From Rhizobium sp. ASV8 (lineage in GTDB: Bacteria > Pseudomonadota > Alphaproteobacteria > Rhizobiales > Rhizobiaceae), in the NCBI RefSeq assembly GCF_016429255.1, contig NZ_JAELUG010000003.1, positions 62,001-126,000 of the forward strand: DNA of 64,000 nucleotides, read 5' to 3'. Numbering within the stretch: the stretch's first letter is position 1; each line of letters begins with the position of its first letter. Shown one piece after another: positions 48,342 to 56,160 of the stretch. The translations under genes were made by a program, and so were the position numbers. The notes under the pieces are model-generated. The model had not been told where the DNA came from, ran no database searches, and saw only the letters and a program-made list of their open reading frames with translations.

Positions 48342-48651
48342 GTCACGCCGTTACATGTCGCGGCTTCTGCAGTTCCTCGATCGACAAGAGACCGGGCACG
48401 TTGCCGAGCCGGTTCCGAAGCCGTCAGCTTTATTCGTCTGAGCGTCAACAAATTGGACTTGGAGATAGTCAGTACATGCGCCTCCTGCCACCCCTGGCAT
48501 GACGAGCAAGGGCAAGGCTGGAGCAAGCTCGGCTCGATAGCCTCCGTAAAAAGGAGAGGGCGATCATTTCTGCAGTCTTACCCTCGCGATCTGTGGTTTG
48601 TCCGCTTGTGCGTGATATGCCCGTCATTGGGCTGGTTTGAAAGAACTCGAT

Positions 48652-49176
48652 ATGACTGATATTTCCTTCTCACCTCTGGCCCAGAGACTGCGGGATGCGG
48701 TGGCCTTTGCGTCCCGGGCTCCTATTGAATTCGGAGCGGACGCGGTCTTGGATCGAGCGAATGATCAGATAGGTATTGGAAAAATTGTCGATCTCCCGCG
48801 GATTCCGGACAGTCGCGGGTCGCTGACTTTCATCGAAGGCGGCGGGCACATACCCTTCGACATAAAGCGGGTCTATTATCTTTATGACGTTCCCGGTGGA
48901 GCAACGCGCGGCGGTCATGCTCACAAGGGCTTGCATCAGCTCTTAATAGCCATGGCAGGCAGCTTCGATATCATTCTTGACAACGGGAAGAAGGCGCAAC
49001 GCCATTCCCTCAATCGCTCCTATTTCGGCCTGCACATCCCTCCTATGACCTGGCGTGAGATGGAGAATTTCTCGTCCGGGGCAGTGTGTCTTGTGCTCGC
49101 CTCGGAGCACTACGACGAAGCCGATTACTATCGCAACTACGAAGCATTTATGGAAGGCGTTCAGGCAAGCCGATGA
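48652..49176 (+). CDS. Sugar 3,4-ketoisomerase-like cupin (FdtA/QdtA family)
   Basis: A 174-residue cupin of the FdtA/QdtA/WxcM-like group. Known members isomerise dTDP-4-keto-6-deoxyglucose to the 3-keto sugar, which is then aminated. The barrel contains DSRGSLTFIEGGGHIPFDIK, then the catalytic His pair in TRGGHAHKGLHQLL. The N-terminal 45 residues are longer than in FdtA. The ATG at 48652 was used; an in-frame TTG is 15 bases upstream. It begins an operon in which every junction overlaps or is within 30 bases. Next is the aminotransferase that would use its product. Confidence 0.85.
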   Translation: MTDISFSPLAQRLRDAVAFASRAPIEFGADAVLDRANDQIGIGKIVDLPRIPDSRGSLTFIEGGGHIPFDIKRVYYLYDVPGGATRGGHAHKGLHQLLIAMAGSFDIILDNGKKAQRHSLNRSYFGLHIPPMTWREMENFSSGAVCLVLASEHYDEADYYRNYEAFMEGVQASR

Positions 49177-50312
49177 CCGGTATTTCATTCTTCGATCTCG
49201 CGAGCGTCAATGCGCCGCTCGCCGCCGATCTCGGCAGAGCGGCTTCAGAAGCGATCGCCAGCGGTTGGTTTATTCTTGGCAGGCGGGTCGAGGCGTTCGA
49301 GGCCGAGTTCGCGGCCTACACCGGAGTTTCGCATGCGATTGGTGTGGCAAGCGGGCTCGACGCGCTCGCGTTGACGCTGCGCGCCTGGAAGCAGCAGGGG
49401 AAGTTGCGCGATGGCGATGGTGTTGTCGTGGCTGCCAACACCTATATTGCAAGTATTCTTGCCATCACGGAAAGTGGTCTTACGCCTGTCCTCGTCGAGC
49501 CGGATGAAGCCACATTCAATCTGTCGGTCGAGGGTGTGCGCTCTGTGTTGTCGCAGAAGCCCAAGGCGGTCATGGCTGTGCATCTCTATGGCCAGCTCTG
49601 CCCGATGCCGCAATTGCGCGCGCTATGCGATGAAAACGGGATGCTGTTGCTTGAAGACAGCGCCCAGGCGCATGGGGCGGTCATTGACGGGCGCAAGGCC
49701 GGCACGTTCGGCCACGCTGCGGGGTTCAGCTTCTATCCCAGCAAAAATCTCGGTGCTCTTGGTGATGGCGGAGCAATCACCACTGCCGATGCCGAGCTGG
49801 CGGACCTGTTGAGAAAGCTGCGCAACTATGGTTCGCATCGCAAATATTATCATGAGCATGTGGGTATCAATAGCCGCCTTGACGAGATGCAGGCTGCCTT
49901 CCTTTCGGTCAAGCTTCCACATCTCGACGCTGGCAATGCAAGGCGGCGGGAAATCGCAAGGCGCTATCGCGACGGGATCACCAACAGGGCAGTTATGGTG
50001 CCTAGTGTCGAGGGAGATGAGGCTGGTCACGTCTGGCATTTATTCGTTGTGCGTTGCAGTCAGCGTGAGGAACTATTCGAGCACCTGCTGACTTCGGGTA
50101 TCCATGCGGCAATACATTATCCCGTCCCCCCGCATCTCCAACCTTGCTACCGCGAGGCGTTGGCCGGCTACGATCTGCCCATGACGGAACGCCTGCACAA
50201 AGAGGTACTCTCGCTTCCTATGAGCCCTGCTCTGACGGATGATGAAGTGCAAAGGGTGATTGCCGTGACCAACGCTTTTCACTCAGACCTCAAGGCAAAT
50301 GCGAATGGCTGA
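49173..50312 (+). CDS. DegT/DnrJ/EryC1/StrS aminotransferase, FdtB/QdtB-like
   Basis: A 379-residue PLP-dependent sugar aminotransferase. The Schiff-base Lys lies in FSFYPSKNLGALGDGG (about residue 186), the cofactor Asp in LEDSAQAHGA (about 160), and substrate-loop features in NYGSHRKYYHEHVGINSRLD. It should transfer an amino group to the C3 keto group made by the preceding enzyme. It starts by an ATGA overlap with the ketoisomerase gene. Neither the nucleotidyltransferase nor the 4,6-dehydratase that would supply dTDP-4-keto-6-deoxyglucose is in this window. Confidence 0.92.
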   Translation: MTGISFFDLASVNAPLAADLGRAASEAIASGWFILGRRVEAFEAEFAAYTGVSHAIGVASGLDALALTLRAWKQQGKLRDGDGVVVAANTYIASILAITESGLTPVLVEPDEATFNLSVEGVRSVLSQKPKAVMAVHLYGQLCPMPQLRALCDENGMLLLEDSAQAHGAVIDGRKAGTFGHAAGFSFYPSKNLGALGDGGAITTADAELADLLRKLRNYGSHRKYYHEHVGINSRLDEMQAAFLSVKLPHLDAGNARRREIARRYRDGITNRAVMVPSVEGDEAGHVWHLFVVRCSQREELFEHLLTSGIHAAIHYPVPPHLQPCYREALAGYDLPMTERLHKEVLSLPMSPALTDDEVQRVIAVTNAFHSDLKANANG

Positions 50313-51060
50313 GACCGTTTCCTTTGACAATATAGGTTTCGAGGACTTCAGAAGGTTTGCTCAGGATGCATCCTTGTCCAAATACGAACGCATCGGGTTC
50401 CCCGATTCATATCGTGAAGGTAAGGAAGCCGCTATTTTCGCGGATATTCGTACCAAGCTGACGAATTTGCAGCGCCATGGTCAGCGATGCCTCGATATCG
50501 GTCCCGGCTGCAGCGATTTGCCCTTGATGCTTATGGCATTGTGCAGCGAGCAGGAGCATGAACTGGTTTTGGTCGACAGCCAGGAAATGCTGGATCTCCT
50601 ACCGCAGGGCGACGGGTCAAGGGTCGAAAAAATTGCCGCCCGCTATCCGGAATGCCCGGCGCTCATATCTGCGTCGCAGGGCCGTTTCGACATCATCCTT
50701 TGCTACAGCGTGCTGCATTACATCATGATCGATGTCGCCTTCTTCCGGTTTCTCGATGTGTCGTTGGCACTACTCGCGCCGGGAGGCCAGATGCTAATCG
50801 GCGACATCCCGAATATTTCCAGGCGCAAACGCTTTTTCGCGAGCGATACGGGAATACGGTTCCATCAGGAATTCATGAAAACCGACGCGGTGCCGTCGGT
50901 CACGTTCAACAAGATAGAGCATGATCACATCGACGATGCGGTCGTGATGGCCATCGTTCAGCGCGCCCGCCTCCAGGGATTTGATGCCTATATCGTACCA
51001 CAGAACGTTGACTTGCCGATGGCAAACCGTCGCGAAGACATTCTTATCGTTCGCCCTTGA
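50299..51060 (+). CDS. SAM-dependent methyltransferase
   Basis: A 253-residue class I methyltransferase. Motif I reads CLDIGPGCSDLPLML (about residue 58) with an acidic strand end LVLVDSQ. Post-motif segments include FDIILCYSVLHYI and LLAPGGQMLIGD. The N-terminal extension (FDNIGFEDFRRFAQDA) is similar to methyltransferases in surface-polysaccharide clusters. It overlaps the aminotransferase gene by 14 bases. Its likely role is N- or O-methylation of the amino sugar, inferred from context only. A second in-frame ATG is two codons later. Confidence 0.85.
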   Translation: MRMAETVSFDNIGFEDFRRFAQDASLSKYERIGFPDSYREGKEAAIFADIRTKLTNLQRHGQRCLDIGPGCSDLPLMLMALCSEQEHELVLVDSQEMLDLLPQGDGSRVEKIAARYPECPALISASQGRFDIILCYSVLHYIMIDVAFFRFLDVSLALLAPGGQMLIGDIPNISRRKRFFASDTGIRFHQEFMKTDAVPSVTFNKIEHDHIDDAVVMAIVQRARLQGFDAYIVPQNVDLPMANRREDILIVRP

Positions 51061-51089
51061 ATGGGCCTTTCCAGAAGAGGCAAGCCGGC

Positions 51090-51770
51090 ATGATGAAAAC
51101 GAAGAGACTTTTTATTGTCGGTGACAGCGCATTCGCCGAGATTGCCTATGAATATTTTATGGCCGATTCAGACTATGAAGTCGTCGGGTTTGCGGTCGAG
51201 GCTGCATATCTGAAGCAAAGCGAGCTGTTCGGGCTTCCAGTCGTGCCGCTCGAACAGGTCGGGCAGCATTTTCAGCCTGAAGATACTGAGTTCTATGCGG
51301 CTATCGTCTACTCTCAGCTGAACCGCTTGCGCCATCGTCTCTACACTGAAGTCAAGGCATTGGGGTATCGCCCCGCCAGCTATATAAGCAGCCGTGCATT
51401 TGTCTGGAGGAATGTTGCGCTTGGGGAACATTGCTTTATCTTCGAGGATAATACCGTCCAGCCGTTCGTCACCATCGGTGATAACGTCGTGCTCTGGAGC
51501 GGTAATCACATCGGGCATCATAGCCGGGTTGAAGATAATTGCTTCATATCGTCCCACGTCGTTATTTCCGGTTTCTGCAATATCGGCTGCAATAGCTTTC
51601 TCGGTGTAAACGCTACGATTGCCAACAATATCACGGTTGGTGCCGACAATTGGGTCGGCCCCTCGGCGACAATCATGAAGGATACCGATAAGGGTGCGTT
51701 CTTCAGGACTGTGCATAGCGAGGTTGCCAAAATCAGCGCCCCGCGCTTTTTCAGAATAGCTGGAGAATGA
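51090..51770 (+). CDS. Sugar O/N-acyltransferase, NeuD/PglD-like hexapeptide family
   Basis: A 226-residue protein with an N-terminal Rossmann-like domain (RLFIVGDSAFAEIAYEYFMA) and a C-terminal left-handed beta helix (about residues 100-215) with hexapeptide repeats. The catalytic His is in WSGNHIGHHSRVED. This is the NeuD/PglD architecture that acetylates an amino sugar with acetyl-CoA, so the product after the aminotransferase is probably an N-acetylated 3-amino sugar. Two adjacent ATG codons (51090, 51093) could serve as start. Confidence 0.88.
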   Translation: MMKTKRLFIVGDSAFAEIAYEYFMADSDYEVVGFAVEAAYLKQSELFGLPVVPLEQVGQHFQPEDTEFYAAIVYSQLNRLRHRLYTEVKALGYRPASYISSRAFVWRNVALGEHCFIFEDNTVQPFVTIGDNVVLWSGNHIGHHSRVEDNCFISSHVVISGFCNIGCNSFLGVNATIANNITVGADNWVGPSATIMKDTDKGAFFRTVHSEVAKISAPRFFRIAGE

Positions 51771-51773
51771 GCG

Positions 51774-52700
51774 ATGCAATGGGAGAAACTCGGGGTCATT
51801 TGGTCTCCCCCGGGCAACAAGGCATGGGCGCGAAAATATGCAACATGCCCGACGCCCCTCTGGCGCAAGGATGGCTCACTGCGTCTCTATATCCAATGTC
51901 GCGATGATCTCAATGTTGGAAGGGTCGGCTACGTCGATGTCGATCCCGACAACCCTTTACGCATAATATCTGTATCCGAGGAGCCGGTTCTCGATCGCGG
52001 TGTTTCCGGTGCATTCGACGATAACGGCGTTTTCCAGACGTCGGTTGTGCGCGTGCCGGATGGACGTATCTTTATGTATTACGTCGGTTTCGAGCTTTGC
52101 CACCAGATCCGTTACCGTTTGCTGACCGGCCTCGCCATCAGCCAAGATGACGGCTGCTCGTTCGAGCGGGTTGCCAACACACCAATCCTCGAACGCTCTT
52201 CTTCTGAGTTGCATATCCGTTGCGGCCCATGTGTTTTGCCCCCTGAAGGCAATGGGAATTTCCGCATGTGGTATGTTGCGGGAAGTGAGTGGGAAGAGAT
52301 CGATGGCAAGTCCATGCCCCTTTACGATCTGCGCTATATCGAGTCGCCCGACGGCATAGTTTGGCCGCGTGAGGGGCAAGTAATCATGAATATCAATCAC
52401 AACAATGAGCACGGCTTCGGTCGCCCGTGGATCGTTCCATCCGCGAACGGCTACCGAATGTTTTACAGCATACGGGGCCGCATGCCGCGAGCCTACTATC
52501 TCGGCTATGCGGAATCGAAAGACGGTCTGCAATGGGCGCGTAAGGATGATCTGATGAATCTGGATGCCGCAGAAACTGGCTGGGATAGCGAGTCGATCGA
52601 GTATTCAGCTGTTGTCAGTTATAATGGTCAAACATACTGCTTCTATAACGGCAACGACTTCGGGGTGACCGGCTTCGGCGTCGCCAGATTGGTACAATGA
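51774..52700 (+). CDS. GH43/GH32-like beta-propeller protein
   Basis: A 308-residue protein with repeating blade signatures such as GYAESKDGLQWARKDD, YIESPDGIVWPREG and AISQDDGCSFERV. This is the five-bladed propeller pattern of GH43/GH32/DUF1861-like glycan enzymes or binding proteins. There is no signal peptide, so it acts in the cytoplasm. Candidate acidic catalytic residues are in FDDNGVFQTSVV and HIRCGPCVL but could not be confirmed. It is 3 bases after the acyltransferase gene. Glycosidase, sugar-nucleotide phosphorylase or regulator are all possible. Confidence 0.7.
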   Translation: MQWEKLGVIWSPPGNKAWARKYATCPTPLWRKDGSLRLYIQCRDDLNVGRVGYVDVDPDNPLRIISVSEEPVLDRGVSGAFDDNGVFQTSVVRVPDGRIFMYYVGFELCHQIRYRLLTGLAISQDDGCSFERVANTPILERSSSELHIRCGPCVLPPEGNGNFRMWYVAGSEWEEIDGKSMPLYDLRYIESPDGIVWPREGQVIMNINHNNEHGFGRPWIVPSANGYRMFYSIRGRMPRAYYLGYAESKDGLQWARKDDLMNLDAAETGWDSESIEYSAVVSYNGQTYCFYNGNDFGVTGFGVARLVQ

Positions 52701-53674
52701 CCTGGTCGATCATTCCTTTTGATGACAGTTATCGGCAACTATGGGACGACTGGTGTGCGGGAGCGGTCAATGGCACATTCTTGCATACGCGCCGCTTTCT
52801 GAGCTATCACGGTAGCCGTTTCGCGGATGCCTCGGTGATGGTGTTCCACGACGGCAGGCTCGCAGGCGTCTTGCCGGCAGCTCTTGCCCCGGGAAATCCT
52901 AAGAAGGTCGTCAGCCATCCTGGCGCCACCTATGGTGGCGTCGTGCATAACGGACGTATGGGTGGTGAAAAAATGCTCGCCGCAATGCGGGCGATCGTTG
53001 ACCATTACCGGACGCTGGGCGTCGAAACGCTTCTCTACAAGGTTGTTCCCAATGCTTATGCCCAAGTTCCCTCACAGGACGATCTCTATGCCCTGTTTCG
53101 GCTGCGAGCACAGCTTGTGCGACGTGACTTGTCATCGACCATCGACCTCTCTAATCGCCTGCCCCTCACGGATCTGCGCAAGCGCAGCCTGAAAAAAGCG
53201 CTCAAACAAGTCACATTGAGTGCCGAAAGCCGATTTCTTCCCGATCTATGGAATGTTCTGAGCGAGAACCTGGCCCGAAAACACGAGGCAAAGCCTGTTC
53301 ATTCCATGGGCGAACTTCGCCTCCTGATTGACCTCTTTCCGGAGAATATCTCCATACGATGCGCTCTTCAGGATGAAAACGTCGTTGCGGGTATCGTTGT
53401 ATTTCATTCACCCGTGGTCTGGCATGCGCAATACATCGCGTCCAGCGAGGTTGGGTATGATGTTTCGGCCCTCGATGCGGTGTTTGCTGCGTCCATAGAG
53501 GAAGCCGGCAATACGGGCGCCAGATATTTTGATTTTGGTATAAGCAACGAGAGCGGCGGCCTGGTGCTCAACGAAGGGCTTTATAATTTCAAGTCCGGAT
53601 TTGGCGGCGGCGGCATGGTGCATGATTTCTATGAGGTCGACATCGCCTGCTCCGCCCAAACACGAACCGCATAG
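52697..53674 (+). CDS. FemAB/GNAT-like acyltransferase
   Basis: A 325-residue protein of the Acetyltransf_6 / FemAB-like GNAT group often found in exopolysaccharide clusters. The N-terminal half contains WCAGAVNGTFLHTRRFLSYH, the C-terminal half the typical end FDFGISNESGGLVLNEG then FKSGFGGGG. It probably transfers an acyl or aminoacyl group to the amino sugar. It starts by an ATGA overlap with the propeller gene. A second acyltransferase beside the NeuD-like one suggests two different modifications. Confidence 0.78.
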   Translation: MTWSIIPFDDSYRQLWDDWCAGAVNGTFLHTRRFLSYHGSRFADASVMVFHDGRLAGVLPAALAPGNPKKVVSHPGATYGGVVHNGRMGGEKMLAAMRAIVDHYRTLGVETLLYKVVPNAYAQVPSQDDLYALFRLRAQLVRRDLSSTIDLSNRLPLTDLRKRSLKKALKQVTLSAESRFLPDLWNVLSENLARKHEAKPVHSMGELRLLIDLFPENISIRCALQDENVVAGIVVFHSPVVWHAQYIASSEVGYDVSALDAVFAASIEEAGNTGARYFDFGISNESGGLVLNEGLYNFKSGFGGGGMVHDFYEVDIACSAQTRTA

Positions 53675-53694
53675 CTCGCGGCGGGAGAAACTAC

Positions 53695-55953
53695 TTGCAA
53701 GTCAATATCGAGAATCTTGAGGAAGAACTCGCGCGATTTTATAGTGCGAAAGATTTCGAGACAATGGCGCAGACTATTCGTCACCTGTTTCGTATGCTGC
53801 GGCAAGACCAGCGCATGTTCGGCATGGCGCTTTATGAACCGGTATCAGATCGCTATCTCTATCGCATCGCCCACTTGTTACATCGGCGACAGTCTGCTGT
53901 TTTGAATGCGAATACCGTGATGCATGTCATTTCGCAGGTCTATACCACCGGTGGCCACACACGTGTGTTCGAGGACATCGTCTCAGCCATGCCAGAGAAG
54001 AAGCATGTCCTGATCATGACGAACGCCACGGAACACTACACAGGATATTTGCGCCTGCCGGATCTACTGGAAGAGCGTTTCAGGAAGTTGGGTGTCGAGG
54101 TCATCTTTCTCCAGAAGGGAGGCTTGCTGGATCGCATTTATGAATTGCTCGATCATGTAGATCATTTCGCTCCGCAGACCATTTTCCTCAATGCGCATCA
54201 TGAAGACGTCATTGCATATGGTGCGATATGCGGCGATACGGCACCGCGTGTACACTTCCTTCATCATGCCGATCACCACCCAAGCCTGGGTGCGACGCGT
54301 CCGGACTATGAGCATGTCGATCTGACCGCGGAGTGCCATCGGTTTTGTTGCACGCATGTCGTCCCTGCACCTTCAATGCTCAATATGACGGTTACTGACA
54401 AAGGAGCTATCTACGCCGTACCACAGGGTCCGATTACCGGAGCGACGTCCGGCGCCCATCATAAGTTCCACGGCAAACTGCTGTTCAGCTATCCGGAACT
54501 TCTGGCAGCAATGTTCAAAAGTGGGCTCGAAAAGTTCTACCATATAGGCGACTTGTCAGCGACGGAAATCGAGCATATTCGCAAGGAAGTCGTCCTCAAT
54601 GGAGCCGATCCCGACCGCATCGTTTTTACCGGCAACGTTCCCTCGCTCGCGGATTTCCTGAAAGAGCTGACGCCCCATTTTTATATGGAGTCGCATCCCG
54701 TCGGTGGTGGCAAGGCCCGCATTGAGGTCATGAGTTTGAGATTGCCCGTTCTGCGCGCAGAACCGGATGAAAAAATACCGCTCTTTCGATGGGTGGACAA
54801 TAAGATCGGCTCGGCTGTACTCATCACCACGCTTGATGAGGTAGCCGCGAAATTACAGGAACTTCTGCAAAACAGGGAGCGGATCGCCGACGAAAATAGG
54901 CTCTTTTACGAAGAAAATCATCGACCAGAGCGGTTCCGCGATACATTGCTTGCCATGACCGAAATCTTGCCGGAAGGTGCGCGGCCTCCCGTACCTGACG
55001 ACTATAAAGACGCCGGCGATCTGACGTTGATGTCAACTCACGAGATCCGAGCGCTGGACACTGAGCTTGATCGTCGCGCGGGGACCGGGCATCCTGCCAG
55101 CATACTCAAGCCAGAGGTTCAGTCGCCAGCCGGAACGGCCGTTAGCGGACATGAAGGCTATCTGTTCATCGGCAATGGTACGAACCGATGGGAAGAACAG
55201 TTTCTCGGCACGCTCGATCCGGGTGTCGATTGGCTTGGGGCATGGTCGGAGCTTCTTGATAGACGCCAGTCAATGGCGCAAGCCGCCGGGGTGTCGCTTT
55301 GGAATCTCGTCATCCCGGAAAAGCAGTCCGTTCTGACCAGAAAACGCTGGCCAGATTTTCCAGATGCCGAAATTGCACGCCCAATCCTCAAGCTGCTGGA
55401 CAAGGTGGAGATAGACAAACATCTGATGTATCCGGACAGGACACTCTTGACTGCGACCGCCAGTTCACCGGTTTTCTTCAGACACAACTCTCATTGGACG
55501 GCATCCGGTTGCCTGGCTGTTATCCGGTTGCTGATGATGGCATTCTCTTCAACGGTGGACGTGGATACTCTGAAGTTCAAGGTCGAGCGCCGGACCCTCG
55601 CGCATGATCTGACGGTTCATTTCTTCGATCCGGCTCCGGAGGAAGAGGTTGTCAACCTCGCCGCATGCGGCAAGGTCGTGGCTGACAATCGGATGTACCA
55701 GCTTCAGGGGCGGCATACCGGGAGCAGCTACAAACTGGAGAATCTGTCTGCGCCGGAGAAAAGGTCTGTGATGATCTTCGGGGACAGTTATTCCTACGAT
55801 GCAGGCCTCTCCTATGCTCTCTCGGCCATATTCTCCACGGTTAGCTTCATATGGTCTAAGGATATCCTGTGGAGCGAGGTCACGGCACAGAAGCCCGATA
55901 TCGTGCTGTGGGAGAGCGCCGAGCGCTACATTCTGACGGTTCCCACAGACTGA
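53695..55953 (+). CDS. Fused glycosyltransferase and AlgX/AlgJ-like SGNH acetyltransferase
   Basis: A 752-residue protein with two unrelated halves. Residues 1-430 look like a GT-B glycosyltransferase (ISQVYTTGGHTRVFEDIVSA near 80 and a C-terminal lobe with ESHPVGGGKARIEVMSLRLP near 355). Residues 480-752 match the AlgX/AlgJ SGNH acetyltransferase fold: GYLFIGNGTNRWEEQFLGTL, a His region RHNSHWTASG near 600 and the Ser motif IFGDSYSYDAG near 695. The classical DxHW dyad here reads NSHW, with Asn for Asp. The start is TTG at 53695, supported by GGGAG 7 bases before it; the next ATG (53763) would trim 23 residues. There is no signal or membrane segment, so acetylation would happen in the cytoplasm. 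Confidence 0.75.
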   Translation: MQVNIENLEEELARFYSAKDFETMAQTIRHLFRMLRQDQRMFGMALYEPVSDRYLYRIAHLLHRRQSAVLNANTVMHVISQVYTTGGHTRVFEDIVSAMPEKKHVLIMTNATEHYTGYLRLPDLLEERFRKLGVEVIFLQKGGLLDRIYELLDHVDHFAPQTIFLNAHHEDVIAYGAICGDTAPRVHFLHHADHHPSLGATRPDYEHVDLTAECHRFCCTHVVPAPSMLNMTVTDKGAIYAVPQGPITGATSGAHHKFHGKLLFSYPELLAAMFKSGLEKFYHIGDLSATEIEHIRKEVVLNGADPDRIVFTGNVPSLADFLKELTPHFYMESHPVGGGKARIEVMSLRLPVLRAEPDEKIPLFRWVDNKIGSAVLITTLDEVAAKLQELLQNRERIADENRLFYEENHRPERFRDTLLAMTEILPEGARPPVPDDYKDAGDLTLMSTHEIRALDTELDRRAGTGHPASILKPEVQSPAGTAVSGHEGYLFIGNGTNRWEEQFLGTLDPGVDWLGAWSELLDRRQSMAQAAGVSLWNLVIPEKQSVLTRKRWPDFPDAEIARPILKLLDKVEIDKHLMYPDRTLLTATASSPVFFRHNSHWTASGCLAVIRLLMMAFSSTVDVDTLKFKVERRTLAHDLTVHFFDPAPEEEVVNLAACGKVVADNRMYQLQGRHTGSSYKLENLSAPEKRSVMIFGDSYSYDAGLSYALSAIFSTVSFIWSKDILWSEVTAQKPDIVLWESAERYILTVPTD

Positions 55954-56160
55954 TCGGTCAGAATCGGAATGGGCTTGGCTAGCGGAACGATCCGCTTGAG
56001 ACCCGCTGACGTCGCGAGACGACTGGCGCCGCCGCGGCGGTCCACAGGGGCTGCGGCGTGGCGCGTATTGCTTCTTGCCTTTCAATGGCCGATTGATCGG
56101 TTCCATATTGGCTGACATAGTTCCGACGCACATCCGCCCATAGCAAGCAAAGATCCATCG

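Follow-up and report, generated by a model that had tools for sequence, protein, structure and literature searches.

The gene at positions 53695-55953 of the window (the whole 64,000-nucleotide stretch of Rhizobium sp. ASV8 DNA that was analysed) genuinely joins two known kinds of enzyme, a GT-B-like glycosyltransferase (GT) and an AlgX/AlgJ-like SGNH domain; the fusion was found in one genome and lies in a cassette of genes predicting a sugar. We consider it nearly an even chance that the product is a cytoplasmic two-domain enzyme in which the GT adds an amino sugar and the AlgX-like half O-acetylates the resulting product, with acetyl-CoA as the probable donor. The features of the fusion and of the cassette upstream of it are as follows.

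48637-49176, + strand: FdtA-type dTDP-4-keto-6-deoxyhexose 3,4-ketoisomerase (PF05523, E 4.7e-54).
49086-50312, + strand: DegT/DnrJ/EryC1 sugar aminotransferase (PF01041, E 4.8e-107).
50299-51060, + strand: methyltransferase-like protein, cassette member, below the Pfam cut-offs.
51057-51770, + strand: NeuD/PglD-type hexapeptide acetyltransferase, cassette member, by family match.
51774-52700, + strand: GH32/GH130-like protein, cassette member, both matches below the curated cut-offs.
52697-53674, + strand: FemAB-like GNAT acyltransferase (Acetyltransf_6), cassette member, by family match.
53695-55953, + strand: GT-SGNH fusion, open reading frame of 752 aa with a TTG start, from the open frame scan.
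53695-54978, + strand: GT-B-like glycosyltransferase domain, residues 1-428, with GGHTR (86-90), HHADHH (190-195) and GGGKARIE (337-344), by alignment and structure match.
54979-55143, + strand: linker, residues 429-483, by codon-position GC, starting at the end of the standalone homologue L002.
55144-55950, + strand: AlgX/AlgJ-like SGNH domain, residues 484-752, with PEK (541-543), NSHW (598-601), Ser698 and AER (742-744), by Pfam, profile and alignment.

Pfam ALGX (PF16822) matched residues 519-709 with 27.0 bits in the whole protein and 30.2 bits in the SGNH half alone, the cut-off being 26.5. Searching the PDB with an SGNH family profile of 22 rows, the window domain among them, recovered AlgJ (4o8v, E 6e-26), PatB1 (2e-13) and AlgX (7e-7), and the TDTHW of AlgJ was aligned on the DxHW column; plain phmmer of the PDB with the whole protein gave nothing better than E 0.03. 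The single-sequence AlphaFold model of this half had a mean pLDDT of 31, and the kinship with AlgX and AlgJ rests on the sequence profile. An earlier note had proposed this kinship from the letters and had called for a profile search of the C-terminal half; the search confirmed it. The altered motif, NSHW at 598-601, was confirmed as well.

AlgJ has been described as carrying two signatures, PhiPhiPhiPxK and (R/K)TDTHW, the latter with the catalytic Asp (PMC9487903). The fusion keeps the first as LVIPEK and reads RHNSHW at the second, with Asn598 at the Asp position. The Trp of NSHW is kept, GYLFIGNG occupies residues 488-495, and the catalytic order is permuted as in AlgJ/AlgX, with His600 preceding the block I Ser698. 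Among 33 aligned AlgX-like domains (the duplicate L037 was left out), all 33 had the His and the Ser, 32 had the PxK Lys and 31 had the Asp, the two with Asn being the window domain and L024. Asp638 was tried as the counterpart of the active-site Asp of AlgJ and dropped, as a count along the profile alignment puts it near residue 235 of Pseudomonas putida AlgJ and not at D254, a member of the AlgJ network (PMC9487903).

Hydropathy found no N-terminal signal or transmembrane helix in the fusion; the maximum, 1.62 at residue 603, lies inside the SGNH domain. The absence of an export signal noted earlier was thus confirmed. It is not peculiar to the fusion, as a tree of 45 AlgX-like domains (33 aligned plus 12 more, midpoint root) shows. 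By a chosen hydropathy threshold (1.4 over 19 residues), an upstream hydrophobic segment was missing in 29 of the domains and present in 16. One side of the tree has 29 rows, of which 28, many of them free-standing proteins, lacked the segment; each side held a single exception (L029 and L038), and none of 500 label shuffles clustered as well as observed. In L029 the segment is part of a long N-terminal stretch and is perhaps no membrane helix. Support for the main split was moderate (89/83, below the firm mark). The window domain groups with the signal-less relatives, which also exist as free-standing proteins of about 300-330 residues, on a branch of 1.9 changes per column; its row is in no firmly supported group, and its exact place is unsure.

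The motif Asp was present in 42 of the 45 tree domains, including all 28 other rows without the hydrophobic segment, and also in the fragments shorter than 200 residues that were left out of the tree, wherever these covered the column. Asn replaced it in three: the window domain, L024 and L116. The latter two form a firm pair (support 100/98) on the opposite side of the tree, so that NSHW arose twice on this tree. Both are predicted to be membrane-anchored, and the other signal-less domains keep Asp; the Asn is therefore not tied to a cytoplasmic location, although the earlier note had linked the two. Judged from these sequences, cytoplasmic location and loss of the Asp need not coincide. L024 (also numbered L113) and L116 further carry DSMG in place of GDSY/F.

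These observations bear on a rival reading that we regard as rather unlikely, namely that the SGNH half has degenerated and lost catalysis, as marked by Asn598, and now serves as a carbohydrate-binding module by which the growing glycan is positioned for the GT. The long branch of the window domain would agree with such decay, as would the report that exchanging Asp for Ala at the DxHW position abolished AlgX activity (PMC9487903). However, the domain retains Ser, His, Trp and the PxK lysine, and the recurrence of NSHW in a separate anchored pair suggests a tolerated variant rather than decay. Within the superfamily, many CE2 enzymes are believed to work with a Ser-His dyad (PMC9487903), so SGNH activity without the Asp is possible.

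The acetyl supply was examined at the level of the genome. No MBOAT match was obtained at E 0.001 in the ASV8 genome (completeness 99.98), and thus no AlgI/PatA-type supplier was found; the MBOAT search of 14 control genomes gave matches in three. PF16822 was present in one protein of the ASV8 genome and in none of the 14 control genomes. Another acetyl supplier, such as an AT3 acyltransferase, is possible in the same genome. WssI, a relative of AlgJ, has been described as accepting acetyl-CoA in vitro (PMC10302187). Given this use of acetyl-CoA by WssI, the predicted cytoplasmic location and the absence of an MBOAT match, acetyl-CoA would be the obvious donor.

The GT-B domain of the fusion (residues 1-428) looks intact, and a Pfam scan of these residues matched no family. 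The full-length AlphaFold model was weak (mean pLDDT 40, with the SGNH half below 50), leaving only the GT half usable, and the structural comparisons that follow come from this low-confidence model. Two Rossmann-like domains of the GT-B type were present. Over residues 73-425 the GT half matched the GT-B enzymes 4xso_A (Z 11.2, rmsd 4.3, 269 aligned) and 5djs_A (Z 11.2, rmsd 5.4, 310 aligned), and the top Foldseek rows were XcOGT and SPY (E about 4e-5), which we take to be GT41 enzymes. The matched rows mostly span residues 33-425, which makes the absence of AlgX from them uninformative. XcOGT was also matched weakly by the GT profile (E 0.025). The motif of GT4 enzymes, E-x7-E, was absent from all seven aligned GT rows, which have V, F, T or L at position 336 and an invariant E344.

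A free-standing GT homologue of 430 residues with 48% identity occurs in a Rhizobium tropici relative, and longer relatives covering most of the GT profile were found in G340, G341, G272 (interrupted), G812, G630 and G897. Eight GT loci were retained in total, the window gene included. A public genome scan with a 3-row GT alignment gave three loci, including Rhizobium tropici IGFRI Rhizo-19 and Candidatus Magnetaquicoccus (G897). The GT profile matched 45 of 385 genomes at the level of the class and 16 of 299 at that of the phylum. Most of these matches took in just some 60-70 positions, around profile 290-365, in long proteins that were not counted as members; G630, G812, G897 and G272 were taken as members from these searches. 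L007-L009, which are distant, as well as L047-L049 and L100, stand outside the eight loci, and L010 was dropped as a sulphate permease by eye. Two other arrangements were observed in this family. At L094:3633-9596 (- strand), a 1987-residue protein combines the same GT family with a WbsX domain and a GT2 domain and adjoins FdtA and DegT genes. At L040 (G272), the NeuD-like and GT genes are each split around seemingly the same element, a pair of ORFs (167 and 123 aa) that is present at each of the two sites.

The six cassette genes upstream of the fusion lie on the + strand and nearly touch one another. The FdtA and DegT genes are adjacent, and together these enzymes are expected to give a dTDP-3-amino-3,6-dideoxyhexose; the DegT gene likelier starts at the ATG at 49173 than at the listed overlapping start. 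The protein at 51774-52700 presumably has a beta-propeller fold; it weakly resembles beta-1,2-mannobiose phosphorylase (E 9e-14, far below the cut-off) and is conserved in the cassette. All six genes recur with the GT in G340. The methyltransferase-like, NeuD-like, GH32/GH130-like and FemAB-like genes recur in G272, with DegT a few kilobases on, and a methyltransferase adjoins one SGNH copy of that genome. G630 has DegT and the NeuD-like, GH32/GH130-like and FemAB-like genes with the GT, and in G031 and G812 FdtA and DegT recur with it. DegT thus lies near the GT in six of the eight loci and FdtA in four. Other glycosyltransferases adjoin the GT of G341 (12 kb examined), and no sugar genes were seen among the four neighbours scanned in G897.

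The cassette (window 48600-56060) has a GC content of 52-59%, compared with 56-64% in its surroundings. On its right side, the block at 56.06-59.6 kb is matched at 85-87% by five Rhizobium plasmid records, and at that sensitivity the cassette was found in none of the 10 records listed out of 17, as would suit an island gained by horizontal transfer. Neither a flippase nor a polymerase family was detected among the cassette genes scanned with Pfam, so the cassette probably acts on a glycan or protein that is made elsewhere. The plasmid-borne relatives of the SGNH half lay in glycan loci in all seven records examined of nine matches; two near-copy pairs reduce the seven to five independent cases. 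Around the chromosomal signal-less copy of G423 (genus g88), the six neighbouring frames comprised one Lon-type, one ABC and four without a family.

We propose that the reactions would run as follows. FdtA and DegT would make the 3-amino-3,6-dideoxyhexose, which the NeuD-like or the FemAB-like enzyme, or both, would N-acylate. The GT-B half would most likely move this amino sugar onto a glycan, lipid or protein acceptor, and the AlgX-like half would O-acetylate the product before export, using acetyl-CoA directly; the Ser698-His600 pair would catalyse, with Asn598 at the usual Asp position. The donor sugar, the acceptor, the acetyl donor and the activity of the SGNH half are all what we infer. 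In favour of amino-sugar O-acetylation we counted the frequencies of DegT and FdtA near the GT, the His and Ser kept in 33 of 33 domains, the PxK motif, the plasmid glycan loci, the absence of an MBOAT match and the use of acetyl-CoA by WssI; against it we counted the lost Asp, a possible other acetyl supplier and the neighbourhoods of G423 and G897, where no glycan or sugar families were seen among the neighbours scanned.

The SGNH half could instead be a cytoplasmic esterase (deacetylase), or catalyse another acyl transfer, and in this way modify the amino sugar either ahead of the GT step or following it. Genes for other acyl transfers are already present in the cassette, and AlgX-family enzymes are described as showing esterase activity in vitro (PMC9487903); nevertheless, the characterised proteins matched in the PDB (AlgJ, AlgX and PatB1) serve O-acetyl transfer according to the same source, and we judge this reading improbable.

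Further fusions were sought in several genome sets. A search with the whole protein matched two of 61 relatives, and order-wide searches matched the GT half in 8 of 397 genomes and the SGNH half in 16 of 397; the SGNH profile matched in 21 of 229 genomes of the order. These genome sets and those of the class and phylum overlap, and each count includes the ASV8 genome. Among the matches listed, only the window gene carried both domains, both when the GT profile was run against 310 frames and when the SGNH profile was run against 66 GT loci. No second GT-SGNH fusion was found in the genomes searched. Pattern scans with the protein found no relatives in public genomes or in viral contigs, and phage records gave no match. 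In plasmid records the GT half had a single match, a weak one at 28% across one third of the query, and the whole protein matched nine records, all to the SGNH half. No such fusion is named in the titles or abstract openings searched, which lie mostly outside the subscription literature.

AlgX-like domains do have other partners, with TPR repeats in L103 and L038 and a CDC27 family annotation for L105. In L023 (G218), a long SGNH frame runs on into a part that looks by eye like a methyltransferase. On an Alloyangia plasmid (L102:3862-7194), a protein of 1110 aa has an AlgX-like C-terminus by profile and an N-terminus of about 780 residues; a Pfam scan of this protein gave no match at E 0.01. 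The genus g88 (loci L013-L019 and L028-L038) has up to four AlgX-like matches per genome.

The integrity of the gene was examined across its length. The 752 codons form a single open frame (window 53695-55953, + strand), present as a single copy without an internal stop on a contig of 154,630 bases, and the linker has codon-position GC of the coding type in the same frame throughout. A join artefact is unlikely. GGGAG stands upstream of the TTG, its end 7 bases away, and the standalone GT homologue L002 has an ATG at the same position of the alignment, so TTG is supported as a sound start. The reading of a GT fused to an AlgX/AlgJ-like half in one frame from a TTG start stood; the frame break near residue 450 that the earlier note had named as refuting it was not found, and the assembly join that it had named beside this is unlikely. 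That neighbouring genes were joined by accident, through stop loss or an assembly error, is very unlikely: the fusion is known from one genome, a draft of 1562 contigs, but the frame is unbroken across the coding-type linker, it lies well inside its contig, and around the other seven GT loci, in stretches of about 11-20 kb, no separate SGNH gene was detected with the SGNH profile, whereas a simple join of neighbours would predict one.

In the literature examined, AlgX, AlgJ and PatB form that end of MBOAT-SGNH relays which lies in the periplasm or outside the cell. The sequence of the fusion suggests that one molecule attaches and acetylates a sugar inside the cell; if so, the AlgX fold would function in the cytoplasm as well, with acetyl-CoA at hand, and the fusion makes such cytoplasmic activity testable with one protein. 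More broadly, signal-less AlgX-like domains occur in plasmid glycan loci, an arrangement for which the titles and abstract openings searched held no description. It is conceivable, though on balance we would not expect it, that a soluble AlgX-like branch O-acetylates cytoplasmic glycans from acetyl-CoA without a membrane shuttle, and that the fusion would add and acetylate each 3-amino-3,6-dideoxysugar in a single pass by means of a Ser-His pair supported by Asn. The G423 copy, which has no glycan families among the neighbours scanned, weakens the generality of the link to glycan loci. The GT family, which has no Pfam match and travels with 3-amino-sugar genes, should help to predict surface glycans in Rhizobium and others.

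Comparison with known systems places the fusion beside four of them. With the GT-B enzymes of the GT41/GT4 type (XcOGT, SPY, HepE and TarM) it shares the GT-B fold over residues 73-425 in the low-confidence model, whereas the GT half has neither a Pfam GT family match nor E-x7-E. WcbI, a CoA-binding capsule protein, has been described as a putative acetyltransferase of capsule synthesis and as a novel fold, and this description sets it apart from the fusion; a literature search for WcbI together with SGNH returned nothing. The cellulose O-acetyltransferase WssI, whose closest characterised homologue is AlgJ and which uses acetyl-CoA in vitro, is described as predicted periplasmic and part of the wss machinery (PMC10302187), and is likewise set apart by description. 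AlgJ and AlgX (PF16822) are periplasmic, whereas the fusion has no export signal by hydropathy; it also differs from them in lacking a detected MBOAT partner, in having NSHW instead of (R/K)TDTHW and in being joined to a GT. It shares with them the SGNH family, PhiPhiPhiPxK, the His of HxW, the block I Ser and the order of His before Ser.
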